From positions 1 through 21,933 of IMG/VR virus record IMGVR_UViG_3300007345_006582: a stretch of 21,933 nucleotides of DNA. The stretch is one strand, 5' to 3'. Positions 1 through 21,933 of this stretch are shown piece by piece; the stretch's first letter is position 1, and each line of letters begins with the position of its first letter. The notes beneath the pieces are model-generated. The model saw nothing but the letters and a program-made list of their open reading frames with translations, ran no database searches and was not told the DNA's origin. This stretch comes from a virus. The position numbers and the translations under genes are program-made.

Positions 1-86
1 TCCTCTGTGGTGGCACATTCGCACAGCCAATCTTCGAGTCTGTGATTGAGTTCGTCCATTGTGATTTTGGTGATTGCTGCGCTCAT
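1..86 (-). CDS. Unidentified minus-strand gene, 5' part only (runs off window start)
   Basis: The frame reads leftwards from an ATG at 86-84 and is still open at base 1, giving 28 codons (MSAAITKITMDELNHRLEDW, then LCECATTE). It starts one base after the stop of the upstream minus-strand gene, which suggests one operon. The visible part is probably helical with a Cys-x-Cys pair; nothing in it identifies a function. G+C is about 50%, as in its partner gene and well above the rest of the window. The opposite strand is also open here but gives a cysteine- and phenylalanine-rich peptide with no protein-like character, so the minus reading is preferred. Confidence 0.55.
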   Translation of the reverse strand, partial: MSAAITKITMDELNHRLEDWLCECATTE

Positions 87-87
87 G

Positions 88-261
88 TTATGCGTCCCAG
101 CTAAAAGGTTTTGCGTCTGCGCTACGTGTGTAAGGTTTGGCAAGGTGAGCTTTGCGAGCTGCTTCCTTCTCGTTGATTTCTTGTTGGATCAGCGCATCCA
201 GTTCGGCGTTCAGTTCTGCGAACTCTTTCGCAATTTCGTTTCGTGTTCCGTTAACTTTCAT
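88..261 (-). CDS. Small charged helical protein, 57 aa, unidentified
   Basis: The minus strand reads from ATG at 261-259 to TAA at 90-88: MKVNGTRNEIAKEFAELNAE, then a highly charged helix (about residues 8-40) rich in Glu, Ala, Lys and Gln, and a tail ending KPFSWDA. A single long amphipathic helix suggests a small DNA- or protein-binding accessory protein, but I recognise no family. Codon use (CTG, ATC, AAC, GCG, CGC) and about 49% G+C differ sharply from the AT-rich genes to the right. The next minus-strand gene starts one base downstream. No clear ribosome binding site precedes the ATG. The frame stays open further upstream without a better start. Confidence 0.55.
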   Translation of the reverse strand: MKVNGTRNEIAKEFAELNAELDALIQQEINEKEAARKAHLAKPYTRSADAKPFSWDA

Positions 262-324
262 ACTTATAAGGTAGTCGAATCCGTCAACGATTGCAAGAAA
301 AAGTTTTAATTATTTTTAACCTGC

Positions 325-501
325 TACCCCTCCCCCCATTGTCTACAGCATCTGGTGTGCCAACCCTCCCCCCTTTTTCTAAAATATTTTTGAGATTGAC
401 TTTTGCTAAATAGGTGGGGGGACATTTTCTTCAATATGTAATTCATTTTCAGACAAACTAAACCCAACCAAAATAATAAAAACCCATACCCCTCCCCCAT
501 T
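325..501. repeat. Repeated C-run motif (C4-T-C5/6) in the spacer
   Basis: TACCCCTCCCCCCATT (325-340) recurs as TACCCCTCCCCCATT (487-501), one C shorter. A related AACCCTCCCCCC sits at 362-373 and an opposite-strand G6 run at 416-421. Such runs stand out in DNA that is otherwise nearly all A and T. They may be binding sites for a phage or host regulator, or form G-rich structures on the minus strand (G6-A-G3 and G6-A-G4 lie within about 50 bases). Function is unknown. Confidence 0.5.
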
Positions 502-599
502 TAATAAAAATCAATAAAATAAATAAGAAATCAGTATAAATAAGAATAAAAAAAAATAAGCGAGGCTTTTGAAATAGGGAAAATAATATAAATATTAAT

Positions 600-628
600 T
601 TGACAGCCGCCGACCTATTTGGTATTAT
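600..628 (+). promoter_or_regulatory. Sigma70-type promoter for the glycan cassette
   Basis: TTGACA at 600-605 is an exact -35 consensus. It is followed after exactly 17 bases by TATTAT at 623-628, five of six matches to TATAAT. The ATG of the first cassette gene is at 636, seven bases after the -10 box, so the expected transcription start falls at or next to the ATG and no Shine-Dalgarno sequence fits. This predicts a leaderless or nearly leaderless transcript. Confidence 0.6.
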
Positions 629-635
629 ATAAGAT

Positions 636-950
636 ATGGATTATTTAATGGTATACCTAGACGAGAACCGGGAAAAACGAGCTGCGATTCCTGATGATGA
701 AGGAGTGTACTACGATTCGGTTGACTTTGAGGAATATACTGAAGATATGTCTGCAATGGAAGTAGTAGTATTACAATCAGAAGATTTTTATAATAAAGTT
801 AGAGATCCTGATTCTGAAGGCAAGTTTTTCACATGTGAGTTTGCGGGTAGATATGTATCTAATATGAAAGTGTGTGATACTATAGAAAGTGTTGGATTTA
901 CTACATTTTTTACTACTGTTATTAATGAGCATATAAGAAATGACGAATAA
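636..950 (+). CDS. Small acidic protein, unidentified, first gene of glycan cassette
   Basis: The gene encodes 104 residues, strongly acidic (many Asp/Glu, for example PDDEGVYYDSVDFEEYTEDM). There is no signal peptide, membrane segment or recognisable motif. It follows a good promoter and ends two bases before the large glycosyltransferase gene, so the two are probably cotranscribed. The ATG at 636 fits the -10 spacing; a second in-frame ATG four codons later (648) is possible. Acidic proteins of this size in phages can be DNA mimics or inhibitors, but nothing here supports that specifically. Confidence 0.75.
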   Translation: MDYLMVYLDENREKRAAIPDDEGVYYDSVDFEEYTEDMSAMEVVVLQSEDFYNKVRDPDSEGKFFTCEFAGRYVSNMKVCDTIESVGFTTFFTTVINEHIRNDE

Positions 951-952
951 AC

Positions 953-3900
953 ATGAATTACTTTATAACACATTGTGATAAGAATTATATAAAATATGCC
1001 GAAAGACTATTTGAAACACTAAAAAGATATTCTAAATATAAAATTATATTCTTATCTATTGATTTTGATTATAAAAATCGTTTTGATAACGTAATAAATA
1101 TAAAATGTGATGTTTCTGGCTTAGTAGGTAAAAAAGGAAACGATTTATTAAACTCTTTGAACGGTGATGCCAAATCTTACCATGTGTTTTTGAAGCCATT
1201 ATTAATAAAAAAGCTAATAGAAGATGAATTTATAGAGGTAAAGCCCGAAGACAATTTTTGTTACTTAGATTCAGATTGTTTCGTAATGAAAAATTGTGAT
1301 GATATTTTTAATAAAATTTCAAATATAACATATTACCCATTATTTACTGTGGGTTGTCAAGAGTATATGATGTTTGGGAATAGGGGTAATCCTTTCGCAA
1401 ATGAAGGTTTTGATTTAAAATTAACTTTAGAAGCCCCTTTGATGGAATTTCTGAAAATAGATATTAATTTAAGAACTTCGACGTATTTACAAACTGGAGC
1501 ATTTATTTTTAACAGTAAATGTTATGATTTTATAAAAGAATGGTTTAGTACTTGTTTCTTTAAAATACCTTTCAAAGATGTGGCTTTTTTAGCTCCTTTC
1601 CACGAAGAAACAGTTGCTAACTGTCTACTGTGGAAAAACAAAGTAAATAAAAATTTAGGAAGATCTTTAATTAATGTTATTGAAGGAAAACATCAAGATT
1701 TATTAAAGATGGTGGACTCAATAAATAATCCTCAATCAAATTTAATTAGATTGACAAATTATTGTGCTATACCGGGTGAATCTGAAATAGAGGATTTATA
1801 CTTTTACCATCGAAGAGTTGAAAATGATGTTTATGAATTTTTAATCAGTAAAGATGCTGAAATAAAATGTAAGAATAAAAAAATTATATTTTTAGCCCCT
1901 CACTTGTCTACTGGTGGATCTCCTTCGTATTTAAAATGGTTAATCGAGAAAAAATTATCAGAAAATTATTCTGTTAAAGTTATTGAGTACTGTTTTTACG
2001 GCGCTGATTATGTAGTACAGAGAAACCAAATAATAAATCTTGTCGGAGAAGAAAATTTCTTAAGTTTTGGATATATCCATGATTCTTATGAAAAATATGA
2101 ACAGAAAACACCGTTACTTATAGATTATATCAATAAAGAAAACGCATCGGAGATACATCTGAATGAAATCGTTGAAGATTTTTCAGCGAAACCAATAACT
2201 GATGGATTAAAGGAATTTTTATACTCAAAGAACAGGAAATTTAAAATTTTTGAAACGTGCCATAATTCTACGTTTAATTTCCAAAACAAAGTTTTATTAC
2301 CTGACGAATTCCATTTTTGCTCTCCTTTCCACTTGAAAGTCTCAGAAAATTTAAATGTTCCTAAAAAAATAGTAGAAATGGAAATACCTAAAAAGATGCG
2401 TCCAGAAAGATCAGGCGCTTTAGAAAAATTAGGATTATCTCCAGATTGCTTTCATGTGCTTAATGTTGGTTTATTCATGGTAAATAAAAATCAAAAATAT
2501 ATATTTGACCTTGCTGAAAAACTACAACATAAAAATATACAATTTCATTTTGTTGGCAACACTTGTTTTTTAAATGATTGTGGTTTAACAGAAACTCAAA
2601 AGAATTTACCGAATTGTATCGTGCATGGCGAAAAGGATAATGTTGCTGATTATATGGCGGCAATGGATTTGTTTTTATTTCCTTCTTTGCTTGAATTAAA
2701 TCCCATAGCACTTAAAGAAGCTATAAGTTGGAACATGAATATATTTTTAAATAATTTAGATGTATATGCAGGTTCTTTCGATAATAATCAGTTAGTTACT
2801 TATATAGAAGGTGATAACTTGTTCAATTATCTAAATTCTGATAAAATAGCCAAAATAGATATGGACATAACCGACAACAACAATATTGACATCTCTTTTA
2901 ATCAAGAAGCTAAGGTTGAAATTTTAGGATCTCAAAGTTTTAATTATGATATAAAATTTTTAAATTATAATAATGAGATAGCTTATTCAACACGACTGTC
3001 TACAAATATGTGGGCTGCATGTAGTAGTATAGATCGTAGCGGTAAAGTTTTAGTTACTAATTTATCGAATAATAAAACTTTAGAATTTGGATTTCAAAAT
3101 ACAAATTTAATTAATGAGTCAGGATCTTTAGGGGATAGTTTAGCTTGGCTTCCTGTTGTTAATCAATACGCCGTAAAAAATAATTTAAAAATTAATTATT
3201 ACACCCCTAATAAAGTTCTATTTGATAAATCTAAATACCCTTTAATTTCTTTTCATGATTACGCCGATCAAAAAAATATAACTGATAAAAGTTCTATTAC
3301 TAAAATTGGATGTTTTGAAAAAGAAAAATTAGCAATTCCTTTGCAGCAATTAGTTGGAGATATATTGGGGGTTCAAGTAGATGGCTCTGAAGATTTTAAG
3401 CCAGCTATAGATCCTTCATTCATAAAAGAAAGACCGTTTGACAAAAAGTATGTTTGCATAGCTACTCATTCTACTGCTCAGCTTAAATTTTGGAATAATA
3501 AATCTGGTTGGAAAAAAACGATTAGCTATTTAAAGTTTTTAGGATATGAAGTCGTTTGCATTGATAGGTATAATAGTTATGGTAGAGATCAGTTTATGAA
3601 TCCAATACCTAAAGAAGCAATACATTATCCGGGGGAGTCATTAGGAGATATTGTGAATTGTTTATATCATTGCGAATTCATGATAGGGTTGAGTTCTGGA
3701 TTATCATGGTTAGCTTGGGCTTGTAATAAACCAGTGGTAATGATTTGTGGTTTCTTAGAAAAAGAATATCATTTTGATACGCCTTATTATATTCAAAATA
3801 AACAAGTATGTAATTGTTGTTGGAATGATCCTAGTCAACATTTCGATGCGAATAATTGGACATGGTGTGGAAAAAGTAAAGATTTTGAATGTTCAAAAAA

Positions 3901-3964
3901 GATATCTTTTGATATGATGAAAAACACAATTAATAAATTAAGAAAGGATTTTAGTTTAATATGA
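953..3964 (+). CDS. Trimodular glycosyltransferase: GT-A + GT4-like GT-B + TibC-like O-heptosyltransferase
   Basis: The product has 1003 residues and three apparent domains. Residues 1 to about 290 look like a GT-A nucleotide-sugar transferase, with the metal-binding DxD motif YLDSDC (Asp106, Asp108). Residues about 305-640 look like a GT-B enzyme of the GT4 type, with APHLSTGGSP near 315-324 and the E-x7-E motif Glu581/Glu589 in ELNPIALKEA. Residues about 715-1003 match, from memory, the autotransporter strand-loop-strand O-heptosyltransferase (TibC) family: GSLGDSLAW at 724-732, IGLSSGLSWLAWA at 911-923, and the cysteine cluster CNCCWND (Cys953, Cys956), WC (Cys972), FEC (Cys980), equivalent to the four iron-binding cysteines of TibC. 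TibC transfers heptose to Ser/Thr hydroxyls of repetitive autotransporters; an iron-site role here is inferred. The next gene overlaps by four bases. Acceptor and sugars are unknown; a self-directed role on the fibre is a hypothesis. Confidence 0.85.
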   Translation: MNYFITHCDKNYIKYAERLFETLKRYSKYKIIFLSIDFDYKNRFDNVINIKCDVSGLVGKKGNDLLNSLNGDAKSYHVFLKPLLIKKLIEDEFIEVKPEDNFCYLDSDCFVMKNCDDIFNKISNITYYPLFTVGCQEYMMFGNRGNPFANEGFDLKLTLEAPLMEFLKIDINLRTSTYLQTGAFIFNSKCYDFIKEWFSTCFFKIPFKDVAFLAPFHEETVANCLLWKNKVNKNLGRSLINVIEGKHQDLLKMVDSINNPQSNLIRLTNYCAIPGESEIEDLYFYHRRVENDVYEFLISKDAEIKCKNKKIIFLAPHLSTGGSPSYLKWLIEKKLSENYSVKVIEYCFYGADYVVQRNQIINLVGEENFLSFGYIHDSYEKYEQKTPLLIDYINKENASEIHLNEIVEDFSAKPITDGLKEFLYSKNRKFKIFETCHNSTFNFQNKVLLPDEFHFCSPFHLKVSENLNVPKKIVEMEIPKKMRPERSGALEKLGLSPDCFHVLNVGLFMVNKNQKYIFDLAEKLQHKNIQFHFVGNTCFLNDCGLTETQKNLPNCIVHGEKDNVADYMAAMDLFLFPSLLELNPIALKEAISWNMNIFLNNLDVYAGSFDNNQLVTYIEGDNLFNYLNSDKIAKIDMDITDNNNIDISFNQEAKVEILGSQSFNYDIKFLNYNNEIAYSTRLSTNMWAACSSIDRSGKVLVTNLSNNKTLEFGFQNTNLINESGSLGDSLAWLPVVNQYAVKNNLKINYYTPNKVLFDKSKYPLISFHDYADQKNITDKSSITKIGCFEKEKLAIPLQQLVGDILGVQVDGSEDFKPAIDPSFIKERPFDKKYVCIATHSTAQLKFWNNKSGWKKTISYLKFLGYEVVCIDRYNSYGRDQFMNPIPKEAIHYPGESLGDIVNCLYHCEFMIGLSSGLSWLAWACNKPVVMICGFLEKEYHFDTPYYIQNKQVCNCCWNDPSQHFDANNWTWCGKSKDFECSKKISFDMMKNTINKLRKDFSLI

Positions 3965-4329
3965 ATATAGAAGTTTCAAATGGTGAAATCTTAGATAAGA
4001 TAACAATTTTAAGATTAAAACTAGAGCATATACACGATCAGCAGAAAAGAGCCAATATAATTAAAGAATATGATTTTTTAAAAGATATCTCAGATGAGAT
4101 TGATTATCCAGAAGATTTATATGAACAATTATATTTAGTTAATAAAGCTTTATGGAGAATTGAAGATGATATTCGCAATAAAGAGAGAAATCAAGAATTT
4201 GATGAGGAATTTATTAAGCTGGCTCGATCTGTTTATTTCACTAATGATAAAAGATCGGAAATTAAAAAACAAATAAATTTAAAAACTGAGTCTCAATTTA
4301 TAGAGGAGAAGTCTTATGAAAAATATTGA
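3961..4329 (+). CDS. DUF6165-like protein
   Basis: The product is 122 residues, mostly helical and charged. Its N-terminus (IEVSNGEILDKITILRLKLE, residues 3-22) matches my recollection of the DUF6165 family signature, roughly vSpGELiDKiTILeIKleri. That family has no established function but is common beside glycosyltransferases in surface-polysaccharide loci. The start overlaps the glycosyltransferase stop by four bases (ATGA type) and the end overlaps the methyltransferase start by 14 bases, so translation is coupled through the cassette. A weak AAAGGA lies about 12 bases before the ATG. Family assignment is from memory of the motif. Confidence 0.7.
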   Translation: MNIEVSNGEILDKITILRLKLEHIHDQQKRANIIKEYDFLKDISDEIDYPEDLYEQLYLVNKALWRIEDDIRNKERNQEFDEEFIKLARSVYFTNDKRSEIKKQINLKTESQFIEEKSYEKY

Positions 4330-4954
4330 TGACATTACTTATAATGAAATTTTTAATCACAATTGCTATCAGAAATTCGTTGATGTAGAGGACGGTGATT
4401 TTGTTTTAGATTTGGGATGCTCACAAGGTCCATTTTTTTTCAGGAATCGTGATAAAAAAATTACTTACGTAGGTGTCGATGCAAGTATCAATTGTATTAA
4501 GGATTTTTATAGTAATTTAGATGAGGGGGATTCTCCTATTATTATAAATTCTTTCTTGAGTAATGAGCTAAGTGTTTTACCATTTGAGTGGTACATATAC
4601 GACACTCCCCCCAGAGAAGTAAATTCTATAACTTTTCCTTCTTTGCTAAAAATGATAAATAGAAAAATAGATTTTTTGAAATTTGATATAGAAGCTTATG
4701 AAAAACTAATACTTGTAAAACATTATGATTTATTTAAAAGCAGAGTGAAAAAGTTTGCTGGAGAAATTCATTTTGGCGCACAATCGATTTTCTCAAGAGA
4801 AGATGTTTATCAAATGTTAGAAAAATTGAAAAATGATATTGATATATTCTTTAGATTATATGCATTGGACGGAGTAGATATCAGTGATTCCTTTTGGCAA
4901 AATAAAAATTTCTTTACAGAAGTTATTATAAATGGATATATAGGAAGAAACTAA
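4316..4954 (+). CDS. FkbM-family SAM-dependent methyltransferase
   Basis: The product has 212 residues. It shows the SAM-binding motif I VLDLGCSQG (residues 30-38), the motif II-like region TYVGVDAS and the FkbM-type signature FLKFDIEAYE (about 120-129), which normally reads DiEGyE. FkbM enzymes O-methylate sugars or polyketides, so a role in capping or modifying the glycan built by the neighbouring transferases is likely (inference). A strong Shine-Dalgarno GAGGAG at 4303-4308, seven bases before the ATG, sets the start inside the previous gene. The gene ends in a four-base overlap with the convergent minus-strand glycosyltransferase; no terminator is visible between them. Confidence 0.82.
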   Translation: MKNIDDITYNEIFNHNCYQKFVDVEDGDFVLDLGCSQGPFFFRNRDKKITYVGVDASINCIKDFYSNLDEGDSPIIINSFLSNELSVLPFEWYIYDTPPREVNSITFPSLLKMINRKIDFLKFDIEAYEKLILVKHYDLFKSRVKKFAGEIHFGAQSIFSREDVYQMLEKLKNDIDIFFRLYALDGVDISDSFWQNKNFFTEVIINGYIGRN

Positions 4955-5997
4955 TTAATTAATGATTTAAAAATCATTTCATATTGGTTGCATTGTATTT
5001 CTACGGTGAAATTATGCATAGCGTTTCTTAGACAATTTTCTGGATTGATTTCTTTATAACCTTTTCTTATTGCAAAATTAAATTGATTGTAAGTGGAGCA
5101 TCTAAATCCAGTGTACCCCTGCTTAACCGTCTCAGTAAAACCCCCAAAGTCTGTGGTTATGGTGGGTGTGCCTGAAAATTGAGCTTCTATTACAGCCCAA
5201 TTACAAGGTTCAACAAAAAAACTAGGAGCTAATAAAAATTTGGCTTCAGACAGTAATTTTTTTCTTTCTTCTGGTTCTACAAATCCAATCATTTTACAGT
5301 ATTTAGTGTCTTTTAGTCCTAATATATTAGGTCCGGCAAAATATATTTCTTGTCCGACAGTGTTGCACATGTCGTATGCGGCTTTAACTCCTTTTAATTC
5401 TATCATTCTACCAAGAAAAAGTGCTACATTTGATTTTTCTTTTTTATATAAAAAATCTTTTTGATAGAAACCCGGATAAGCTACAAATTCTTCATGAAAT
5501 TGAACGTTAGATTTTGCTACTCCGTGCATTTTATGCATTTGAGCATATGTTTCAAATATTTTAATTTGTGCAAACATTGAATCATAACCGATGCTTGGTT
5601 CAACAATTATAGCTTTATCATTAAAATGTTTAGCGCATGGTCCATGTGCGTAACCAAACCAGCATAATATAAATTCGTTTTCTGATTTTATTCTTTTATT
5701 TAATTCTTGTATACAATTATTATTAAAGATTTTTACAGCTTTAGCTTCAACGCTTTGATTAAATCCTTCAGTTTTCCATTTATTTAAATCTTCATAGCTT
5801 TCTTTTAGTATATCATCATTTGTAACGGTTATATGTTCTGTGCAGTTCACTTTGGAGTTTTCGTGTCCATAATGATATACGGTATGACCACGTTTCGTCA
5901 TTTCTTCGCAGAATTTATAAACTTTCTGAGTGAAAGCGCATAAAGAAATTTCTTTTCTTGTCGGAGTATATGGAACACTTAAACAATGGAAAATCAT
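4951..5997 (-). CDS. GT4-family glycosyltransferase, opposite strand
   Basis: The product has 348 residues, the normal length for a GT-B enzyme. The C-terminal half carries typical GT4 features: a VALFLGRMIELKG strand-loop near residues 192-204, then FFVEPCNWAVIEAQ with the nucleotide-sugar E-x7-E pair (about Glu263 and Glu271), followed by SGTPTITTDFGGFTETV. The N-terminal half is more divergent but begins with a plausible Rossmann domain for acceptor binding. It is the only minus-strand gene in positions 636-21933. It converges on the methyltransferase and diverges from phoH with 28 bases between start codons, so it has its own promoter there and could be an independently acquired unit. Donor and acceptor are unknown. 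Confidence 0.83.
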   Translation of the reverse strand: MIFHCLSVPYTPTRKEISLCAFTQKVYKFCEEMTKRGHTVYHYGHENSKVNCTEHITVTNDDILKESYEDLNKWKTEGFNQSVEAKAVKIFNNNCIQELNKRIKSENEFILCWFGYAHGPCAKHFNDKAIIVEPSIGYDSMFAQIKIFETYAQMHKMHGVAKSNVQFHEEFVAYPGFYQKDFLYKKEKSNVALFLGRMIELKGVKAAYDMCNTVGQEIYFAGPNILGLKDTKYCKMIGFVEPEERKKLLSEAKFLLAPSFFVEPCNWAVIEAQFSGTPTITTDFGGFTETVKQGYTGFRCSTYNQFNFAIRKGYKEINPENCLRNAMHNFTVEIQCNQYEMIFKSLIN

Positions 5998-6025
5998 CTA
6001 TATATAGTGTAATAATAATTACTAT
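5998..6025. promoter_or_regulatory. Divergent start region of 28 bases between GT4 gene and phoH
   Basis: All signals for two divergent genes must fit in or overlap these 28 AT-rich bases or lie inside the genes. GTAAT (6009-6013) and ATTAC (6018-6022) form a small inverted repeat. On the plus strand AATAAT at 6014-6019 ends six bases before the phoH ATG. On the minus strand TACACT ends eight bases before the GT4 ATG. Neither side has a Shine-Dalgarno sequence or a clear -35 box. Confidence 0.35.
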
Positions 6026-6757
6026 ATGTCAACTAAAAAACGTAGGCAACCAAAGGAAACAATAAAGGAAGTCTTAGAAGATAACGTGTTTAGGCAGGTT
6101 AAATTACAAATCAAAAAATTTAATTTGACTGACAAACAAAAAAGTTTAGTGGAGTTGGCTTTCCAGCATGATACGAAGATAATTTTTATTAATGGGGTAG
6201 CAGGTTCATCAAAAACGTTTTTATCAGTTTATTCTGCGTTACATTTATTAAACGCAAATCCAAGGTATGAAATTAAATATATTAGAACTATCGCTGAAGC
6301 TGGAGAAAGAGGTTTAGGCTCTTTACCCGGAACGGTTGATGAAAAATTCAATCCATTCATGATGCCTTTATATGATAAGCTTGATGAGTTACTTCCTTTA
6401 ACTCAATCTAAGTATTTAGAGGATCAAGGATACATTGAAGCTTTTCCTGTAAACTTCCTCAGAGGCGCTACGTGGAACGATAAAATCATTATAGCTGATG
6501 AAGCTCAGAATTATTCTACAAAAGAGCTGGTGACGCTTTTAACACGCATAGGAGAGGGAACGAAGATGTTTATCTGTGGCGATTCGATGCAGTCAGATAT
6601 TGGGACGAAATCTGGATTTACAAAAATATATGATTTGTTTAAAAGTGAAGAAAGTGAATCTAAAGGAATTCATTGTTTTGAATTTGAAGAAGAAGATATT
6701 GTTAGAAGCGAAATATTAAAATATATTGTTAATGTATTCAAGAAATTAGATAAATGA
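6026..6757 (+). CDS. phoH: PhoH-like P-loop ATPase
   Basis: The product has 243 residues, the usual size of phage PhoH proteins. The Walker A motif is GVAGSSKT (57-64), a slight variant of the common GPAGTGKT. Walker B is IIIADEAQN (154-162), and the region around GLGSLPGTVDEK and the MQSDIG segment are typical of PhoH family helicase-like ATPases. PhoH genes are very common in marine and other environmental phages, where they have been linked to phosphate stress and nucleic-acid metabolism, but their function in phages is unproven. The start has no Shine-Dalgarno sequence; an AATAAT box ends six bases upstream. It is followed after 24 AT-rich bases by a zinc ribbon gene. Confidence 0.88.
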   Translation: MSTKKRRQPKETIKEVLEDNVFRQVKLQIKKFNLTDKQKSLVELAFQHDTKIIFINGVAGSSKTFLSVYSALHLLNANPRYEIKYIRTIAEAGERGLGSLPGTVDEKFNPFMMPLYDKLDELLPLTQSKYLEDQGYIEAFPVNFLRGATWNDKIIIADEAQNYSTKELVTLLTRIGEGTKMFICGDSMQSDIGTKSGFTKIYDLFKSEESESKGIHCFEFEEEDIVRSEILKYIVNVFKKLDK

Positions 6758-6769
6758 TATATTGATATA

Positions 6770-6775
6770 TATAAT
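6770..6775 (+). promoter_or_regulatory. Possible -10 box directly before zinc ribbon gene
   Basis: An exact TATAAT ends six bases before the ATG at 6782. No convincing -35 box lies 15-18 bases upstream, and the surroundings are repeats of AT, so a chance match is possible. It is listed because five other genes here show the same spacing and this start has no Shine-Dalgarno sequence. Confidence 0.3.
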
Positions 6776-6781
6776 ATATCA

Positions 6782-7144
6782 ATGAGTAATATTTTTTGTT
6801 CGCAATGCGGCTCCAAACATTCAGTAGGATCAAGATTCTGTTCTGCGTGTGGGGCCGCGTTATCTAGTTTTTCTGCGCCAAGACAGCAGCTCAGTCAACC
6901 TCAAGTAGAAATTGAAGATGATTCTTCTTCATTTGTTAGACCAAGAAGATTGTCATACGAAATAGAACAAGGAGGTAATAACACATTTAAAGGTGAAGAA
7001 CTATTTAAGTCTGCTCCTGTGAGCGATAGCGATAGATTGGAAAGACCTGTTGCCCAGACTAGAAAATTAAGTCAGGAAGAGTATTTAGCGCAATCATTAA
7101 AAGAATGCGCTCCGAGGGGTATGCAGGATATTGATGAAAGCTAA
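6782..7144 (+). CDS. Zinc ribbon protein with disordered tail
   Basis: The product has 120 residues. Residues 5-24 form a double-CxxC zinc ribbon (Cys6, Cys9, Cys20, Cys23: FCSQCG then FCSACG). The remainder is low-complexity, rich in Ser, Gln, Arg and acidic residues, and probably disordered. Such short zinc ribbons often mediate protein or nucleic-acid contacts. The gene overlaps the sigma-like factor gene, so the two are translationally coupled, and a role in transcription alongside that factor is a fair guess but unproven. No Shine-Dalgarno sequence precedes the ATG; a TATAAT box does. Confidence 0.75.
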   Translation: MSNIFCSQCGSKHSVGSRFCSACGAALSSFSAPRQQLSQPQVEIEDDSSSFVRPRRLSYEIEQGGNNTFKGEELFKSAPVSDSDRLERPVAQTRKLSQEEYLAQSLKECAPRGMQDIDES

Positions 7145-7847
7145 AAAGAAAAAATTTGAAGAGATGTATGAAAAGATTGATGAGGTAATCAAAAAAAGAA
7201 AATCTAAGTGGAGACTTAAAGCTATTACTTGGTTTGATTTTGAAGATATTGAGCAGATAATAAAATTACACATCTATAAAAAATGGCATCTATGGGATCA
7301 ATCTCGACCAATAGAACCATGGGTTAATAGAATAGCTACGAATCAAATAAGAAATATAATTCGCAATAACTATACTTCTATTGCGAAACCGTGTTTATCA
7401 TGTCCATTTAACACCAGCAAAGGCATTGAAGTTGTTTATGAAGATTCATGTGGGTTTACGCCAAGCAAAGTACAGTGTAATGAATGTCCTCTTTATGCTA
7501 AATGGGAAAAATTAAAGAAACCAGCGTATGATATAAAGATGACTGTTAGTTTAGAGAATCATAAGAACTACTATATGACTTTTGAGTCTAGTACTAATTA
7601 TGATTATGTTGAAGCGGAAAAAAGAATGCATCTTTTAATGAAGGATCATTTAAACGATAAACAGTTTTTAGCTTATAAATTATTTTTTATTGATAATTTG
7701 AGTGATGATCAAGTGGCTAAGATTTTAAGATTTAAGACGAATGAAACGGGTAGAAAAGCTGGATACAAACAAATAAAGAATTTAAAAAAGATGCTGTATT
7801 TAAAAGCGCAAAAAATATTAAAGGATAATGATTTATTTTCAGATTAA
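7134..7847 (+). CDS. Sigma70-like phage transcription factor with inserted zinc-binding cysteines
   Basis: The product has 237 residues. Residues about 30-80 resemble sigma region 2: WFDFEDIEQIIKLHIYKKW, then PWVNRIATNQIRNIIRNNY. Residues about 170-225 resemble region 4, with LSDDQVAKIL followed by a basic helix (RKAGYKQIKNLKK). Between them is a cysteine-rich insert: CLSCP (Cys87, Cys90), Cys106, CNECP (Cys115, Cys118), probably a zinc knuckle. By analogy with T4 gp55-type and ECF-like factors it probably redirects host RNA polymerase to late virion genes. I chose the ATG at 7134, with AGGA five bases upstream, over the TTG one codon earlier. It overlaps the zinc ribbon gene by 11 bases and lies two bases before the next gene. 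Confidence 0.72.
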   Translation: MKAKKKKFEEMYEKIDEVIKKRKSKWRLKAITWFDFEDIEQIIKLHIYKKWHLWDQSRPIEPWVNRIATNQIRNIIRNNYTSIAKPCLSCPFNTSKGIEVVYEDSCGFTPSKVQCNECPLYAKWEKLKKPAYDIKMTVSLENHKNYYMTFESSTNYDYVEAEKRMHLLMKDHLNDKQFLAYKLFFIDNLSDDQVAKILRFKTNETGRKAGYKQIKNLKKMLYLKAQKILKDNDLFSD

Positions 7848-7849
7848 TT

Positions 7850-8920
7850 ATGTTATCAGATCAAGATAAAATATTTATTAATAAAAAAATTGAAGAAGGT
7901 TTGGACGATTATGTCGTTATGGCGAATCTACTTCATAAGAAGGAGAATTTAACGGGTAGATCAAAAGAAGCTAAAGCTGTTAGAGATTATTTGATCGAAA
8001 CTGGATTTATAAAGAAAAAGAAGAAAGAAAGATTTGCTAGAGCAAAAGAAATTTTAACAGAGTCTCAACAAAATTTCATAGATCAAAATATTGAATCAGG
8101 GATGGGGCCAAAGCAAATTACGGAGCTTGTTTTTAATCAGAAGTTTCAAGGTGTAGAAAATTTAAATATTCATGTCACAGCTGAATATAGGGCTGTTCAT
8201 AAATACATAAAGGAAAAGTATCCTCAATTTTTAGTAGATTCTGAATCAGGGGTTAATCAAAAATATGCAGTTCCAAGATCTTTAAAAACAGTTTTAAATA
8301 AAGTTAACAAATGGTGCGGCCAAAATTTAAATGAGGATAAATTATCTTTGCAGCATAGAAAATTTTTAGAGAGATTGTTGGTTTATTTAGCTAGTCCCAG
8401 ATTTGTTGGAAACTATGATTCTTACATGAGTTCTCAAGATAAGGATTTATTTGAAGCAGAATTTGTTCGTTCTGTTTGGGATAAGCCTGACCTAACCATA
8501 GATGAAATTAATTTGTATATAAATGTTTGCATGGATTATATTAATCTTAGACAGATTGATATTAAAAAGAATAAAGTTAATGATATGTTTAATGAAACTC
8601 AAGAACAAAATGATTTAACTATTCGTTTGACAGAGATTTTAAAAACAATAAGTGAAGAGTATAACCAATGCGCCAAAAGAATTGATCAGAGCATTCAAAA
8701 GCTTAATGGTGAGAGGGCTAAGCGTATAGATAAGCATCATCAAAAAAATGCTTCCATTTTAAATCTTGTGGAACTTTTTCAAGATGAAAAAGAGCGAAGC
8801 ATGATGATTCAGATAGCTGAAATGCAGAAGCAAGCTGTTCAGGATGAAGCCGAAAAATTTGAAAATATGTCTTCTTGGAAAGCTAGAATTTTAGGCGTAT
8901 CCAAGGAAGATGCAATATGA
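7850..8920 (+). CDS. Helical protein with duplicated HTH-like N-terminus; candidate small terminase subunit
   Basis: The product has 356 residues. Residues about 2-53 (LSDQDKIFINKKIEEGLDDY onward) and about 69-125 (LTESQQNFIDQNIESGMGPK onward) look like two copies of one helical DNA-binding-type domain. Residues about 250-345 are charged, probable coiled coil (for example ERSMMIQIAEMQKQAVQDEA). DNA-binding N-terminal domain plus oligomerising helices is the general layout of small terminase subunits, and the gene lies in the operon that leads into the large terminase, separated from it by one nuclease gene. It is longer than most small terminases, and I have no direct sequence match, so this stays a candidate. 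It overlaps the next gene by four bases. Confidence 0.4.
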   Translation: MLSDQDKIFINKKIEEGLDDYVVMANLLHKKENLTGRSKEAKAVRDYLIETGFIKKKKKERFARAKEILTESQQNFIDQNIESGMGPKQITELVFNQKFQGVENLNIHVTAEYRAVHKYIKEKYPQFLVDSESGVNQKYAVPRSLKTVLNKVNKWCGQNLNEDKLSLQHRKFLERLLVYLASPRFVGNYDSYMSSQDKDLFEAEFVRSVWDKPDLTIDEINLYINVCMDYINLRQIDIKKNKVNDMFNETQEQNDLTIRLTEILKTISEEYNQCAKRIDQSIQKLNGERAKRIDKHHQKNASILNLVELFQDEKERSMMIQIAEMQKQAVQDEAEKFENMSSWKARILGVSKEDAI

Positions 8921-9837
8921 ATAAATGTGAGATATGTGAACAGAAGTTCAAAACAGATAAATCATTTCATGCTCATTTAAAAAAACATGGAATGTATCAA
9001 GCTGAATATTATTGCAAATATCATCCTCGATATTCTCTTTATTATAAAAAGCAAATTCCTTTTATAACTAAGAAGGATTATTTTGAAAAAGAATTTATTG
9101 ACTTGAATGAGTTATTACTGTGGGAGAAAAATGCTGACAGTCAATTAGTTAAAGCTAAATGTTTGGAGCTTTTAGCAAAGCGTATAGAAGAGAAGGGTTA
9201 CGATTACGCTCCATTCCATAATGAATTAAAAACTTTAGATCTGCCTCCTATAGATGTATTTAAAAAACATTTTAAATCTTATAGTAAGGCTTGTCGAGCT
9301 ATAGATAAAGAGCCTATTTTTAATAAGCCGATGCCTTTTGAATTTTATGAAAAAGAAGTTCCAGAAATTGAAATTCTAGTTGATACAAGAGAACAAGATC
9401 CTCTTCCATTTAAAAAGACAAAAAAAGAAAAATTATATATTGGAGATTATTTAAATAGTCAAGGTCAATATACTTATACTTATGTAGATAGAAAAAGTGA
9501 AACTGATTTTTTAGGGACGCTAGCTTCTGGTGTTGAAAGGTTTGAGAGAGAAATAGAAAAGGCTATAGCTCTAGAAGGATATCTTTTCGTAGTTATAGAA
9601 ACAACAATTAATAAGATTAAATATAATCATAAAAAGTTTCGCCGCAAAACTAGTTTGGAATATGTATTTCACAATATGAGATATTTAACTCATAAATATC
9701 CACGCGGCGTTCAATTTATTTTTACTGGTGATAGAGAAAGGTCACTAGATTTAATTCCAAGGCTTCTTCATTTGGGGGATCGTTTGTGGAATGTCGATAT
9801 ACAATATTATTTAGATCATGAGCTGGGAGACAGGTAA
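8917..9837 (+). CDS. C2H2 zinc finger + ERCC4-type nuclease
   Basis: The product has 306 residues. Residues 4-24 form a canonical C2H2 finger, C-x2-C-x12-H-x3-H (Cys4, Cys7, His20, His24). The segment around 95-132 (ending VFKKHFKSYSKACRAIDKEP) resembles the short repeat often attached to homing endonucleases. Residues about 150-215 carry an ERCC4/XPF nuclease core: VDTREQ (155-160), IGDY (175-178), DRKSETD (191-197, a variant of ERKx3D) and ERFEREIE (from 207). Such nucleases cut branched or flap DNA. Here it may trim replication intermediates before packaging, or act as a free-standing mobile-type endonuclease. AAGGAAG lies seven bases before the ATG. The gene overlaps its neighbours by 4 and 20 bases, placing it in the packaging operon. 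Confidence 0.82.
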   Translation: MNKCEICEQKFKTDKSFHAHLKKHGMYQAEYYCKYHPRYSLYYKKQIPFITKKDYFEKEFIDLNELLLWEKNADSQLVKAKCLELLAKRIEEKGYDYAPFHNELKTLDLPPIDVFKKHFKSYSKACRAIDKEPIFNKPMPFEFYEKEVPEIEILVDTREQDPLPFKKTKKEKLYIGDYLNSQGQYTYTYVDRKSETDFLGTLASGVERFEREIEKAIALEGYLFVVIETTINKIKYNHKKFRRKTSLEYVFHNMRYLTHKYPRGVQFIFTGDRERSLDLIPRLLHLGDRLWNVDIQYYLDHELGDR

Positions 9838-11683: not shown

Positions 11684-11705
11684 AAATAAAAGTTAAAAAG
11701 TCACT

Positions 11706-11732
11706 TTGAAAGTAACTTTGTGTAAGTATAAT
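11706..11732 (+). promoter_or_regulatory. Probable promoter in front of the portal gene
   Basis: TTGAAA at 11706-11711 and an exact TATAAT at 11727-11732 are 15 bases apart, shorter than the usual 17. The box ends six bases before the ATG at 11739. Upstream is an imperfect inverted repeat (AAGTTA ... TAACTT within about 11693-11718), too weak and too poor in T-runs to call a terminator. Confidence 0.4.
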
Positions 11733-11738
11733 ATAGAT

Positions 11739-13784: not shown

Positions 13785-13798
13785 GTGTAATAAATATT

Positions 13799-15388: not shown

Positions 15389-15393
15389 AGGTT

Positions 15394-16062
15394 ATGGCAC
15401 TAAGATTATATCCATTCAGACAGTACAGCGAGCAAGATGTCATTAACTTGTTTGCAAGCGACACTGCTGATACCAATCCATCTACAAATGGTAATGGTTC
15501 AGCTGGTGTATTCGTAAAAGTTTCAGCCGGTAATTTGGATCAAGATCCTATTACTTATGCTACAAACGGTTATTTAGGCAAAACTGATTATCCATTTATT
15601 GGAGCTGCTCAGTATCCTTCTGTTCCTTTAACTTTCACAGCGGCTACCGCAGGAACTCCTGTTCTTGGTATTACGTTAAATCAGACAGTTTTAGAGGACG
15701 AGAACGGTGAGAAGCTTCTCTATAACCCTGTTAAAGCTGCAGAGTTACAGGCTTGTTTAAGTGGTCAGGCAGTTCCTGTCGCAAGTCGCGGTATGTTCAC
15801 TTTAGCTGATACAGCAATTGACTGGGAAGACGCCAACATGGTTGTCAACTCTCACTTGTTGATTTCTGCTAATGCTGGTAAAGTATCAGGTTTAGCTCCT
15901 TCAGCTGCTGGTCCATTCACTGGTGATTACACCATTGTTGGAAGAGTTTTAGCTACTGGTCAGCGTGTTTCTCAGAATGGTGAAAGCGATTACTTCGCCG
16001 GAACTACAACTGGAAAATATGCTTTAGTTCAAATCGATTGTGTGAACCCAACCTCACTGTAA
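15394..16062 (+). CDS. Probable capsid decoration/stabilisation protein
   Basis: The product has 222 residues, rich in Gly, Ala, Thr and Val and without long helices, so probably beta-structured. It starts MALRLYPFRQYSEQDVINLF and has no catalytic motif. It lies between protease/scaffold and major capsid protein, where head-stabilising (gpD-like) proteins are usually encoded, and its codon use is elevated in C-ending codons like the capsid gene, implying many copies per virion. AAAGG overlaps the previous stop, two bases from the ATG. The role is inferred from position and composition; I recognise no named family. Confidence 0.55.
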   Translation: MALRLYPFRQYSEQDVINLFASDTADTNPSTNGNGSAGVFVKVSAGNLDQDPITYATNGYLGKTDYPFIGAAQYPSVPLTFTAATAGTPVLGITLNQTVLEDENGEKLLYNPVKAAELQACLSGQAVPVASRGMFTLADTAIDWEDANMVVNSHLLISANAGKVSGLAPSAAGPFTGDYTIVGRVLATGQRVSQNGESDYFAGTTTGKYALVQIDCVNPTSL

Positions 16063-16084
16063 TTAGAAAGGCTTTAATAATAAT

Positions 16085-18102: not shown

Positions 18103-21100
18103 ATGGGAGAAATTGATGTAAATGTTTCATCGTGTAAAAATCAAATTGATGTAAATTTAGTTGCTAATCCTGATATAGATATAACTGGTGTACAAAGAGG
18201 TCCTGCTGGTACAAGCGGAACTTCTGGAACAAGTGGTACATCAGGCACTAGTGGTACTTCTGGCACATCAGGTACTAGTGGCACTTCTGGTACTAGTGGT
18301 ACATCAGGAACGAGTGGGACTAGTGGTACATCAGGAACTTCTGGCACATCAGGCACTTCAGGAACTAGTGGAACTAGCGGTACGTCAGGAACATCAGGGA
18401 CATCAGGTACTTCAGGAACTAGTGGAACTAGTGGAACTAGCGGTACGTCAGGAACATCAGGTACATCTGGTTTAGATGGTAATTACGGTGGTTTATCATT
18501 TAAATATAATTTTTCTACAAGTACAGCAGATCAGAATCCCGGCGCGGGAGATTTTGCATTTAATTCTTCTACTCAATCTTTAACGACTAGAGTTAATATT
18601 AGCAGTGAGGATATATATGGTTCTGATATCGCTGCATTTTTAAGAACAATTGATGATTCTAATTCTGGAGTAAAAGGTCATTTAATAATTACAAAGTTAT
18701 TTGATCCAGAAAAATTTATTCTTTTTACATTAAGTGCCTCAGTAGAATATTCTGGATACTTTAAAATAACAGTTTCAAGAGTAGATAGCTCTGAAACAAA
18801 TCCATTTTCAAATAGTGATGATTGTATAATTAGCTTTGCTAGAACTGGTGATGCTGGAACTAGTGGCACATCAGGAACATCAGGCACTTCTGGAACATCA
18901 GGGACTAGTGGTACATCTGGAACAAGTGGTACTTCAGGGACTTCTGGTACTAGTGGAACTTCTGGAACCTCTGGTACTAGTGGAACCAGTGGAACTAGTG
19001 GGACTTCAGGCACTTCAGGAACAAGTGGAACTTCTGGCACATCAGGAACTTCTGGAACCAGTGGAACTTCTGGCACATCAGGAACTTCTGGAACCAGTGG
19101 AACTTCTGGAACCAGTGGAACTTCTGGCACATCAGGAACATCAGGAACTTCTGGGACAAGTGGAACTTCTGGTACGTCAGGAACATCTGGTACAAGTGGT
19201 ACATCAGGAACTTCAGGCACAAGTGGAACTTCTGGAAGTTCTGGATCTTCTGGTACTTCTGGGCAAGATGGTAATTTTGGTGGCGCGACTTTTGATTACA
19301 CTTTTGATACTGATACGACTAATAGTGATCCCGGCGCTGGTAAATTAAAATTTGATAATTCTAATATTTCTTTAGCGAACAATTTATATATTGATGATAC
19401 TGATGATAGTGGAACAAATATTGATAGTTTCTTGAGAACTATTGATGATTCAACTTCTACAATAAAAGGTCACTTTAGAGTATCAGAAAAATTTGATACG
19501 AATAATTTTGCCTTATATACAATTTCATCTCTTACTGAATATAGTGGATATTACGATGTTGTTTGTGCATATGTCTCAGGTAGTGTTACTTCTTTTTCAA
19601 GTAATCCTGATATTGTAATTACATTCGCTAGAACAGGCGATAAAGGTGACCCCGGAACCAGTGGAACTTCTGGAACTTCAGGAACAAGTGGAAGTTCAGG
19701 AACTTCTGGTACGTCAGGAACTTCAGGAACCAGTGGTACTTCAGGAACTTCTGGTACTAGCGGAACTAGCGGAACTAGCGGAACCTCTGGAACTTCTGGA
19801 ACTTCTGGTACATCAGGAACAAGTGGTAGCAGTGGATCTTCTGGATCATCTGGCTCCAGCGGTAGTTCAGGAACTAGCGGAACTTCTGGTACTAGTGGTT
19901 CTAGTGGAACTTCAGGTACTTCAGGAACAAGTGGAACCTCTGGTACATCAGGTACTAGTGGCACTTCAGGAACTTCTGGAACGAGTGGAACTTCTGGCAC
20001 ATCAGGGACCTCTGGAACTTCTGGTACATCAGGGACCTCTGGAACTTCTGGTACATCGGGAACAAGTGGCACTTCTGGAAGTAGTGGAAGTTCTGGATCT
20101 TCTGGAACATCTGGGCAAGATGGTAATTTTGGTGGTGCGGCATTTAAATATAATTTTGATAATTCTACTACTGATTCAGATCCGGGTTCTGGTAATTTTA
20201 GATTGAATCAATCTACGCAGAATACTGCGACAAGAATTTATATAGATGATGAGGATTTAGATGGTTCTGACATTCAACCTTATTTAAGAACTATAGATGA
20301 TAGTACTTCTACTATAAAAGGGCATGTAAAAATAAGTAAATTATTTGATACATCTTCTTTCTTGTTATTTACTATAAGCGCCGCAATAAGTGAACCGACT
20401 GGGTACTTTGTAATAACTGTTTCTCCTATTGATGAATCAACAGCAAGTCCATTTAGTAATGGTGATGATTGTGTACTAACATTCGCAAGAACAGGTGATA
20501 AAGGTGACCCCGGAACCAGTGGAACTTCTGGAACAAGTGGAACCTCTGGCACTAGTGGTACTAGTGGTACATCTGGAACTTCAGGCACATCTGGAACCAG
20601 TGGTACATCTGGTACGTCTGGAACTTCTGGGACAAGTGGCACATCAGGCACTTCTGGAACAAGTGGTACATCAGGAACTTCTGGCACAAGCGGTACATCA
20701 GGTACTAGTGGAACTAGCGGCACAAGTGGAACCTCTGGAACATCTGGTAGTTCAGGAACATCAGGAACTAGCGGTACAAGTGGAACTTCTGGAACGAGTG
20801 GGACTAGTGGTACATCAGGTACTAGTGGAACTAGCGGCACAAGTGGAACCTCTGGAACATCTGGTAGTTCAGGAACATCAGGAACTAGTGGCACAAGTGG
20901 AACTTCTGGAACGAGTGGGACTAGTGGTACATCAGGTAGTTCAGGAACATCTGGTAGTTCAGGAACATCAGGAACTAGCGGTACTAGTGGAACCTCTGGA
21001 ACGAGTGGGACTAGTGGTACATCAGGTACTAGTGGAACTAGCGGCACAAGTGGAACCTCTGGAACATCTGGCAGTTCAGGAACATCAGGAACTAGCGGTA

Positions 21101-21933
21101 CAAGTGGAACTTCTGGAACTTCTGGAACTTCTGGAACGAGTGGTACATCAGGAACTAGTGGCACAAGTGGTACATCAGGAACTAGTGGCACAAGTGGAAC
21201 CTCTGGTCAAGATGGTAATTTTGGTGGCGCATCATTTAAGTATAATTTTGATTCTACAACAACAGAAGCTGATCCGGGCGCAGGTAATTTTAGATTAAAT
21301 AATTCTACTCAGAATACTGCTACAGCAATATATATAGATGATGAAGATTTGGATGGAAGTGATATCCAGCCTTATTTGCGCACGATAGATGATTCTACAT
21401 CAACAATTAAAGGACATGTAAAAGTAAGCAAGTTATATGATAGCTCTGCTTTTATAATGTTTGCAATTAGCAGCGCAGTATCAGAACAAACAGGATATTT
21501 TAAAGTAGTTGTAAGTCCGGTTGATGAATCAACGGCTAGTCCATTTTCCAACGGCGATGATTGTATACTAACTTTCGCACGTACAGGTGATAAAGGTGAT
21601 CCGGGTACCAGCGGAACAAGTGGTACTAGTGGAACCTCTGGAACTTCAGGGACAAGTGGTACTTCTGGTATTAGCGGAACATTCAGCGGCACAGATAGTT
21701 ATTTTCTATATAAAACAGGATCTACAACTGCTACTGCTGATGGTATTTATTATGATTCTTCTAATAGTCTAGTAGGAATAAATCAATCAAGCCCAAGCTC
21801 ATTTAATTCTGCTGCTGATGATCTTGTAATAGGAAACACTTCTTCTACGACTGATCATGGTATCACTATAGTTGCTGGGTCTACTACAAGTGCTAGTAGA
21901 ATTAATTTTGCAGATGGTACTTCTGGGGCAGCA
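18103..21933 (+). CDS. Giant collagen-like tail fibre, 5' part (runs off window end)
   Basis: The frame is open from ATG 18103 to the last base, 1277 codons, with no stop. AAGGA lies six bases before the ATG. Residues 1-32 form a short N-terminal anchor. Then Gly-Thr-Ser tracts alternate with four copies of a globular module: tract 36-122, module 123-251, tract 252-386, module 387-517, tract 518-670, module 671-803, tract 804-1034, module 1035-1167, then seven triplets and a new domain (from about 1189: SGTDSYFLYKTGSTTATADG, then VGINQSSP). The VGINQSSP-type segment commonly precedes the C-terminal knob or S74 chaperone domain of phage fibres, expected beyond the window. Gly-x-y repeats imply a trimeric collagen-like shaft, here almost proline-free. 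It is probably the host-recognition fibre. Both reading strands are open, but only this frame makes sense. Confidence 0.88.
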   Translation, partial: MGEIDVNVSSCKNQIDVNLVANPDIDITGVQRGPAGTSGTSGTSGTSGTSGTSGTSGTSGTSGTSGTSGTSGTSGTSGTSGTSGTSGTSGTSGTSGTSGTSGTSGTSGTSGTSGTSGTSGTSGLDGNYGGLSFKYNFSTSTADQNPGAGDFAFNSSTQSLTTRVNISSEDIYGSDIAAFLRTIDDSNSGVKGHLIITKLFDPEKFILFTLSASVEYSGYFKITVSRVDSSETNPFSNSDDCIISFARTGDAGTSGTSGTSGTSGTSGTSGTSGTSGTSGTSGTSGTSGTSGTSGTSGTSGTSGTSGTSGTSGTSGTSGTSGTSGTSGTSGTSGTSGTSGTSGTSGTSGTSGTSGTSGTSGTSGTSGTSGTSGTSGTSGSSGSSGTSGQDGNFGGATFDYTFDTDTTNSDPGAGKLKFDNSNISLANNLYIDDTDDSGTNIDSFLRTIDDSTSTIKGHFRVSEKFDTNNFALYTISSLTEYSGYYDVVCAYVSGSVTSFSSNPDIVITFARTGDKGDPGTSGTSGTSGTSGSSGTSGTSGTSGTSGTSGTSGTSGTSGTSGTSGTSGTSGTSGTSGSSGSSGSSGSSGSSGTSGTSGTSGSSGTSGTSGTSGTSGTSGTSGTSGTSGTSGTSGTSGTSGTSGTSGTSGTSGTSGTSGTSGSSGSSGSSGTSGQDGNFGGAAFKYNFDNSTTDSDPGSGNFRLNQSTQNTATRIYIDDEDLDGSDIQPYLRTIDDSTSTIKGHVKISKLFDTSSFLLFTISAAISEPTGYFVITVSPIDESTASPFSNGDDCVLTFARTGDKGDPGTSGTSGTSGTSGTSGTSGTSGTSGTSGTSGTSGTSGTSGTSGTSGTSGTSGTSGTSGTSGTSGTSGTSGTSGTSGTSGSSGTSGTSGTSGTSGTSGTSGTSGTSGTSGTSGTSGTSGSSGTSGTSGTSGTSGTSGTSGTSGSSGTSGSSGTSGTSGTSGTSGTSGTSGTSGTSGTSGTSGTSGTSGSSGTSGTSGTSGTSGTSGTSGTSGTSGTSGTSGTSGTSGTSGTSGQDGNFGGASFKYNFDSTTTEADPGAGNFRLNNSTQNTATAIYIDDEDLDGSDIQPYLRTIDDSTSTIKGHVKVSKLYDSSAFIMFAISSAVSEQTGYFKVVVSPVDESTASPFSNGDDCILTFARTGDKGDPGTSGTSGTSGTSGTSGTSGTSGISGTFSGTDSYFLYKTGSTTATADGIYYDSSNSLVGINQSSPSSFNSAADDLVIGNTSSTTDHGITIVAGSTTSASRINFADGTSGAA
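18208..18468 (+). repeat. Collagen-like tract 1: 29 uninterrupted Gly-Thr-Ser triplets
   Basis: Residues 36-122 of the fibre are 29 perfect Gly-Thr-Ser triplets, preceded by GPA (18199-18207) and followed by GLD. At DNA level this is a nine-base periodicity with constantly changing synonymous codons. Confidence 0.95.
18469..18855 (+). repeat. Globular fibre module, copy 1
   Basis: Residues 123-251 (GLDGNYGG to ARTGDA). This is the most divergent copy in its first half but keeps the shared landmarks: FKYNF, NPGAGDF, GSDI, FLRTIDDS, KGHL, SGYFKITVS, NPFSNSDDC and FARTGD. Probably a beta-rich knob inserted in the shaft. Confidence 0.85.
18856..19260 (+). repeat. Collagen-like tract 2: 45 triplets
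   Basis: Residues 252-386: 43 Gly-Thr-Ser and two Gly-Ser-Ser triplets near the end. A perfect 36-base tandem duplication lies inside it (19027-19062 and 19063-19098). Confidence 0.94.
19027..19098 (+). repeat. Perfect 36-base tandem duplication in tract 2
   Basis: Bases 19027-19062 are repeated exactly at 19063-19098, encoding four triplets each. Because neighbouring triplets otherwise use shuffled synonymous codons, exact identity points to a recent duplication. Confidence 0.9.
19261..19653 (+). repeat. Globular fibre module, copy 2
   Basis: Residues 387-517 (GQDGNFGG to ARTGDKGDP). Shares DPGAGKLKF, FLRTIDDSTSTIKGH, YSGYYDV and ITFARTGDKGDP with the other copies; the centre and the strand before SSNPD are more variable. 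Confidence 0.88.
19654..20112 (+). repeat. Collagen-like tract 3: 51 triplets with Gly-Ser-Ser cluster
   Basis: Residues 518-670: 41 Gly-Thr-Ser and 10 Gly-Ser-Ser triplets. Five consecutive Gly-Ser-Ser triplets lie at 19831-19869 and three near the end, so this tract is the richest in Ser-Ser. Confidence 0.93.
20113..20511 (+). repeat. Globular fibre module, copy 3
   Basis: Residues 671-803 (GQDGNFGG to ARTGDKGDP). Very similar to copy 4, including long identical stretches around IYIDDEDLDGSDIQPYLRTI and DESTASPFSNGDDC, so these two copies arose from the most recent module duplication. Confidence 0.9.
20512..21204 (+). repeat. Collagen-like tract 4: 77 triplets, the longest
   Basis: Residues 804-1034: 72 Gly-Thr-Ser and five Gly-Ser-Ser triplets. 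At the usual collagen rise of about 0.29 nm per residue this tract alone would be about 66 nm long if triple-helical (inference). It contains a near-perfect 117-base tandem repeat. Confidence 0.93.
20701..20934 (+). repeat. Near-perfect 117-base tandem repeat in tract 4
   Basis: Bases 20701-20817 and 20818-20934 differ at two positions only (AGCGGT versus AGTGGC in one triplet pair). Each unit encodes 13 triplets with one Gly-Ser-Ser. A third, 93-base partial copy with one mismatch lies at 21025-21117, and 20944-21024 resembles the end of the unit. Confidence 0.9.
21205..21603 (+). repeat. Globular fibre module, copy 4
   Basis: Residues 1035-1167 (GQDGNFGG to ARTGDKGDP). Closest to copy 3. 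It is followed by only seven Gly-Thr-Ser triplets (21604-21666), then GIS and GTF, and the chain passes into a different, non-repetitive domain. Confidence 0.9.

Follow-up and report, generated by a model that had tools for sequence, protein, structure and literature searches.

Why would a phage carry, on a single polypeptide, three domains of the kind that transfer sugars, one of them related to a bacterial protein glycosyltransferase? The question is raised by a gene in the viral record IMGVR_UViG_3300007345_006582, of which the whole 21,933-nucleotide stretch was analysed (hereafter the window). The gene (953..3964, plus strand) starts with ATG, encodes 1003 amino acids and is a phage gene joining three sugar-adding domains, one of which is related to TibC. 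The best explanation at hand, argued from sequence comparison and held with moderate confidence, is that the encoded chain O-glycosylates the Ser/Thr-rich, collagen-like tail fibre of the phage itself.

A three-domain glycosyltransferase gene

Two further products of the window are a terminase large subunit (9818-11683) and a tail fibre of the collagen-like type. A separately assembled record of almost the same virus, IMGVR_UViG_3300025653_004546, holds an intact copy of the gene (11 mismatches in 12,230 shared bases between the two assemblies), so that faulty assembly in a single sample cannot account for the fusion. The DNA of window positions 1-12000 found no match among phage records.

The first domain (residues 1-295; 953..1837, plus strand) is a GT-A glycosyltransferase with a DSD motif at residues 106-108, recognised by predicted structure, Foldseek and conservation, there being no match for these residues in Pfam or NCBIfam. 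The model, built from 33 phage relatives, reached a predicted local distance difference test score (pLDDT) of 91.5 and a predicted template modelling score (pTM) of 0.91, and its top PDB matches in Foldseek were UGGT, LARGE1, glycogenin, LgtC and WbbM (E ~1e-6). Since identity to these solved members is just 8-15%, the domain can be said to resemble the GT8/GT24 type while its CAZy family stays unsettled. Both Asp residues of the motif (106 and 108), together with Glu219 and His286, are invariant across the 33 relatives. The second domain (residues 309-627; 1877..2833, plus strand) is a GT4-like GT-B glycosyltransferase with an E581-x7-E589 pair, matched by PF13692 (3e-08) and PF00534 (8.4e-08), which bear the Pfam names Glyco_trans_1_4 and Glycos_transf_1; its structural matches include BshA, WaaG and PimB'.

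The TibC-like domain

The C-terminal TibC-like (TIB) domain (residues 643-1003; 2879..3961, plus strand) was identified by three routes. The profile TIGR04414 (hepto_Aah_TibC) matched residues 720-995 with 215.4 bits, above its curated cut-off of 200, over model positions 88-373 of 374; residues 722-999 matched the crystal structure of TibC (PDB 4rap) with an E-value of 2.6e-45; and Foldseek aligned the TIB part of the predicted model with 4rap at an E-value of 1.9e-25 and a TM-score relative to the target (TMt) of 0.72, in 385 columns to a 381-residue chain. In its N-terminal part, the model contains eight strands at residues 644-721, as expected for the N-terminal beta-barrel of TibC described in PMC4358343. 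By profile and predicted fold, the domain belongs with TibC and AAH.

The TibC residues named in PMC4358343 were mapped onto 101 phage TIB domains. The catalytic base D110 corresponds to D728 and is Asp in all 98 aligned phage rows, whilst the sugar-binding residues T226, K230 and W305 correspond to T841 (kept in 99/101), K845 (K or R throughout) and W919 (101/101), respectively. Cys953, Cys956, Cys972 and Cys980 (3809..3892, plus strand) align with the iron-finger cysteines 339, 342, 358 and 370 of TibC and are Cys in every one of the 101 domains; local pLDDT at this region is ~53-55 and the cysteine match rests on sequence. The candidate counterpart of the hydrophobic thumb tip of TibC (F265, V266) is DQFMN at residues 879-883, one column off register in the multiple alignment and in columns that vary among phages. 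The idea that the window protein is without the beta-hairpin thumb of TibC was rejected, the alignment gap lying elsewhere and the thumb region appearing to be kept.

Two positions depart from TibC. The sugar-binding Arg286, whose alanine mutant had its activity abolished or largely diminished, is Ile900 in the window protein, and P300, a determinant of heptose stereochemistry in TibC (both PMC4358343), is replaced by Ser, as in AAH (Ser294). In view of these two replacements, the donor may differ from the ADP-heptose of TibC, and the window enzyme should not be called a heptosyltransferase. Taken as a whole, it also falls outside the bacterial autotransporter heptosyltransferases as strictly defined, since Arg286 is replaced and no partner autotransporter was found among the window open reading frames given to Pfam, the fibrous partner being the collagen-like tail fibre. 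A sequence-only reading of this locus had proposed a three-part fusion in a phage, consisting of a GT-A domain with an intact DSD motif, a GT4-like domain with an E-x7-E pair and a TibC-like C-terminal third with the four-cysteine pattern of the iron finger. All of these were borne out, with matches far stronger than chance would give; its designation of the C-terminal domain as an O-heptosyltransferase was not, given Ile900.

Fused and split versions across phages

The same reading knew of no phage example of this three-part form; the wider survey places the gene in a sizeable company. Scanning IMG/VR with a five-row alignment returned 411 TIB-encoding stretches, and architectures were read from the best 80 loci (given below by their L numbers). 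Where the clade of the window phage was sampled by its PhoH gene alone (IMG/VR contigs, 15 kb or longer), the TIB domain was present in 44/44. The closest relatives (L008, L009, L010/L006) encode a four-part chain of GT-A, GT9-type, GT4 and TIB domains, and the GT9-type insert is missing only from the window chain and its near-identical twin. More broadly, L008-L017 and L033-L047 have the same modules fused with GT9-type and FkbM domains, the FkbM methyltransferase domain being found within the chain of L011, L012 (1.3e-18) and L016 (1.2e-13), and in L051, L054, L056-L061, L067, L068 and L082 the GT4, GT-A and TIB modules are adjacent separate genes. As the modules are fused in some loci and split neighbours in others, they are taken to serve one pathway.

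The phage TIB genes thus counted apparently form a large, undescribed set. Among 50,697 annotated phage records, the domain was found in only four, and in literature other than subscription journals and preprints nothing to the point was found on phage TibC homologues, their link to collagen-like fibres, the glycosylation of such fibres or DUF6165, though other reports may exist. On the bacterial side, one class was sampled through a Methylomicrobium genome, and 1/274 genomes passed the TIGR04414 cut-off, namely that genome itself, with a stand-alone 421-residue frame. A FastTree phylogeny set most phage TIB domains apart from bacterial sequences of the Selenomonadaceae type, which grouped with a support of 1.0, and placed the Methylomicrobium copy among the phage sequences. 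When genome contigs were scanned with the phage TIB alignment, no more than 9 loci came up, a small number because its patterns are phage-like. One of them, on a 6.4-kb contig labelled Candidatus Lokiarchaeota (L204, RDOE01000149.1), encodes the four-part phage fusion, the best segment of which is 63% identical to the window. As this contig carries both the phage fusion and the upstream open reading frame of the phage, it probably belongs to a phage and was mis-binned.

The collagen-like fibre as candidate acceptor

No acceptor had been proposed in the sequence-only reading; what was found here points to the (Gly-Thr-Ser)n collagen-like fibre of the phage itself. The fibre gene (18103..21933, plus strand) was recognised by PF01391 (3.9e-88) and by PHROG tail-fibre matches. 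It is incomplete at the window end, and the 1277 residues shown comprise 314 Ser and 261 Thr (45%), with 209 G[ST]S triplets arranged in five long runs within which there is no Pro. These triplets are encoded by 45 different DNA 9-mers, so that it is the peptide and not a DNA repeat which is conserved, in line with selection at the peptide level.

The association between such fibres and TIB genes was examined with a nucleotide pattern matching four G[ST][ST] triplets. Ser/Thr-collagen repeats were found in 22/50 TIB contigs versus 0/45 controls, the latter being contigs of at least 20 kb picked by a distant PhoH alignment (Fisher p 4.5e-8), and a positive contig occurred in 14 of the 19 TIB clusters formed at 60% identity. 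When the sampling was reversed and contigs were chosen by the GTS repeat, a strong TIB domain was present in 13/50. Within the clade of the window phage, 19 of 22 contigs of at least 21 kb contained the repeat. Gene order adds to these counts: the succession of TIB gene, DUF6165 gene and Ser/Thr-collagen fibre gene was seen in L070, L073, L077, L078, L084 and L085, with DUF6165 overlapping the TIB stop or lying no more than 36 nucleotides from it, and in L070 the fibre frame begins ~20 nucleotides past DUF6165. In L002, L004, L051, L054, L071 and L086, the fibre genes abut glycosyltransferase genes or sit within ~2 kb of them.

Several observations weigh against the fibre as the acceptor. The window fibre lies ~14 kb from the glycosyltransferase gene; no Ser/Thr-collagen was seen in the 27-91 kb of contig available for the split-gene TIB phages L056, L058-L061 and L064; and 37/50 of the contigs selected by the GTS repeat are without TIB. 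The controls of the fibre association were not clade-matched, and co-occurrence within the window clade is unusable as a test because the TIB domain is universal there. The residue corresponding to the sugar-binding Arg286 of TibC is R in 72 and I in 16 of the 101 phage domains, the window protein belonging to the latter. With regard to sugar supply, compact HldE-kinase-like genes (TIGR02198, under its cut-off) occurred in 7/50 TIB contigs versus 1/45 controls, an enrichment which is not significant (p 0.06), and a search for gmhA in the TIB contigs found none.

A proposed glycosylation pathway

Taken together, the phage TIB genes probably serve to glycosylate the Ser/Thr-rich collagen-like tail fibres of the phages themselves. 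The acceptor, donor, order of transfer and biological role that we infer would make the chain a soluble, phage-encoded protein O-glycosyltransferase assembly. The TIB domain would draw on a nucleotide donor to place the first sugar, a heptose or one related to it, on Ser/Thr hydroxyls of the fibre, and the GT4-like and GT-A domains of the same chain would add further sugars; priming of Ser/Thr followed by glycan extension by one chain is plausible. The glycan would probably be capped through methylation by the FkbM-type enzyme encoded next door, with DUF6165 as a likely accessory subunit. The finished glycan would stiffen or stabilise the proline-free collagen stalk, or else shield or tune the fibre. 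Glycosylated threonine, which stabilises the collagen of vent worms (Mann et al. 1996, cited by PMC6953826), offers a precedent for triple-helix stability without proline.

No HldE-like kinase was found in the window or in its two longest relatives, G006 (114 kb) and G011 (128 kb), and these phages would therefore use host nucleotide sugars. In G013, G120 and G141, an HldE-kinase-like gene lies within ~4 kb of the TIB domain. In the 174.5-kb phage contig L046, the interval from the TIB fusion to the Ser/Thr-collagen fibre (11592-16695) contains carbamoyltransferase, short-chain dehydrogenase/reductase (SDR), Zn-alcohol-dehydrogenase-like, thiamine pyrophosphate (TPP)-enzyme-like and HldE-kinase-like genes, a set that looks like a sugar-nucleotide pathway.

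A more sweeping version can be put forward tentatively, with more doubt than conviction: a widespread phage system may coat proline-free (Gly-Thr/Ser-Ser)n fibres with (hepto-)oligosaccharides that take over from hydroxyproline in stabilising the triple helix; DUF6165 would be an accessory subunit dedicated to this system, and TibC-type enzymes would serve fibres generally, autotransporters being only one case.

Competing explanations

A different target would be the host surface, the enzyme altering a glycan such as lipopolysaccharide or its O-chain while the infection proceeds, perhaps so that superinfection is blocked. The GT8-type glycosyltransferases and rfaE in the tail-fibre/host-recognition region of pelagimyophages are read as host glycan modification in PMC7029224, and GT9 and GT4 are domain types characteristic of lipopolysaccharide enzymes. 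The TibC fold, however, is known from a protein glycosyltransferase and its iron finger is kept in every phage copy, no membrane or lipopolysaccharide-synthesis gene is apparent in the window, and TIB genes adjoin virion fibre genes in several lineages, for which reasons a role at the host surface is considered unlikely.

Alternatively, the enzyme could glycosylate another virion protein, be it of the capsid, the neck or a different part of the tail, the Ser/Thr-collagen fibre simply happening to occur in those phage groups too. This would accommodate the GTS-fibre contigs without TIB mentioned above, as well as L058, L067 and L081, which have no detectable Ser/Thr-collagen and carry a structural-looking gene for a protein of ~700 residues directly upstream of the glycosyltransferase genes; in split-gene phages without a nearby Ser/Thr-collagen, such proteins are a possible alternative acceptor. 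It seems improbable in view of the direct adjacency of TIB, DUF6165 and Ser/Thr-fibre genes in several lineages and the presence of such fibres in most TIB clusters. Glycosylation of modified bases in the phage DNA as a guard against restriction, a common interpretation of phage glycosyltransferases (PMC10202952, PMC7029224), is very improbable here, since no family of phage DNA-glucosyltransferases was matched by any of the three domains, the substrates of the closest relatives with solved structures are proteins, lipids or sugars, and the window showed no evident gene for base hydroxymethylation, the larger relatives not having been searched for one.

Should the chain indeed O-glycosylate the phage's own fibre, many uncultured phages would carry glycans on their tail fibres that a single multi-domain chain has built. 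Such a finding would change the reading of phage glycosyltransferases, usually taken as agents of DNA protection or host O-antigen change, provide a first functional context for DUF6165 and suggest how collagen-like stalks without proline could be stable.

Neighbouring genes

The DUF6165 gene of the window (3961..4329, plus strand; PF19662, 3.8e-15) overlaps the stop of the fusion gene with its start (ATGA). As the 3' neighbour of the TIB gene at 0-36 nucleotides, usually with a stop/start overlap, DUF6165 recurs in 16/84 loci and at least three lineages; members of this family, whose function is unknown, were also noted at L070 11709-12098 and L062 10840-11220. It is overlapped in turn by an FkbM-like methyltransferase gene (4316..4954, plus strand; PF05050, 1.4e-4, slightly under the cut-off), followed by a separate GT4 glycosyltransferase gene (4951..5997, minus strand; phrog_3408) that is conserved beside PhoH in the clade. 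Directly 5' of the fusion gene is a 104-residue open reading frame (636-950), conserved upstream of the glycosyltransferase genes in many relatives, and before the fibre genes stands a 381-residue frame (16085-17230) that reads like a major capsid protein and has no PHROG or Pfam match.

Amongst the split-gene phages, L058 (11059-15060) and its relatives have, after the TIB gene, a protein of ~1.3 thousand residues with a cytidyltransferase-like part according to PHROG. The proteins of ~700 residues directly upstream of the GT4 gene (L058 1460-3565, L067 1339-3432 and L081 365-2461) are without a PHROG match.

Comparison with known systems

Pelagimyophages likewise have glycosyltransferases and a heptose-pathway gene beside their tail-fibre genes; unlike here, these are interpreted as modifying the host O-chain, and no TibC-like domain is reported in the accessible part of PMC7029224. 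The uncultured huge phages LR756501, LR756503 and LR756504 (636-735 kb) contain TibC-like genes at 26-30% identity which the records leave without annotation. The first of these, LR756501, has two separate chains next to a GSSGTSG collagen fibre, one from a GT4 gene and the other a GT4-TibC fusion, unlike the single chain of the window.

Among cultured phages, the comparison is with Microcystis phage Mel-JY01, whose protein WWT39291.1 (1226 residues; PP395634.1 4750-8430) ends in a TibC-like domain of 34% identity and has a Ser/Thr-collagen gene 1.7 kb away. It differs in having GT4-like and other domains before the TIB domain, and a GT-A domain of the window type was not detected. The record annotates the protein just as 'methyltransferase FkbM', the TibC-like domain having been missed.

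The closest system of known function remains that of TibC and AAH (TIGR04414; PDB 4rap and 4rb4), with which the window TIB domain shares the fold over its whole length, the counterparts of D110, T226, K230 and W305, the four cysteines and the N-terminal beta domain. It differs from them in being phage-encoded and fused to GT-A and GT4 domains, in the replacement of R286 by Ile and of P300 by Ser, in its adjoining DUF6165 gene, and in its apparent partner, which is a collagen-like fibre instead of an autotransporter. TibC forms a ring-shaped dodecamer, and the two extra domains of the window chain may alter assembly. What TibC does is hyperglycosylate the serines of a repetitive fibrous protein (PMC4358343), and a fibrous, repetitive, Ser-rich protein is likewise a plausible acceptor for the window enzyme.

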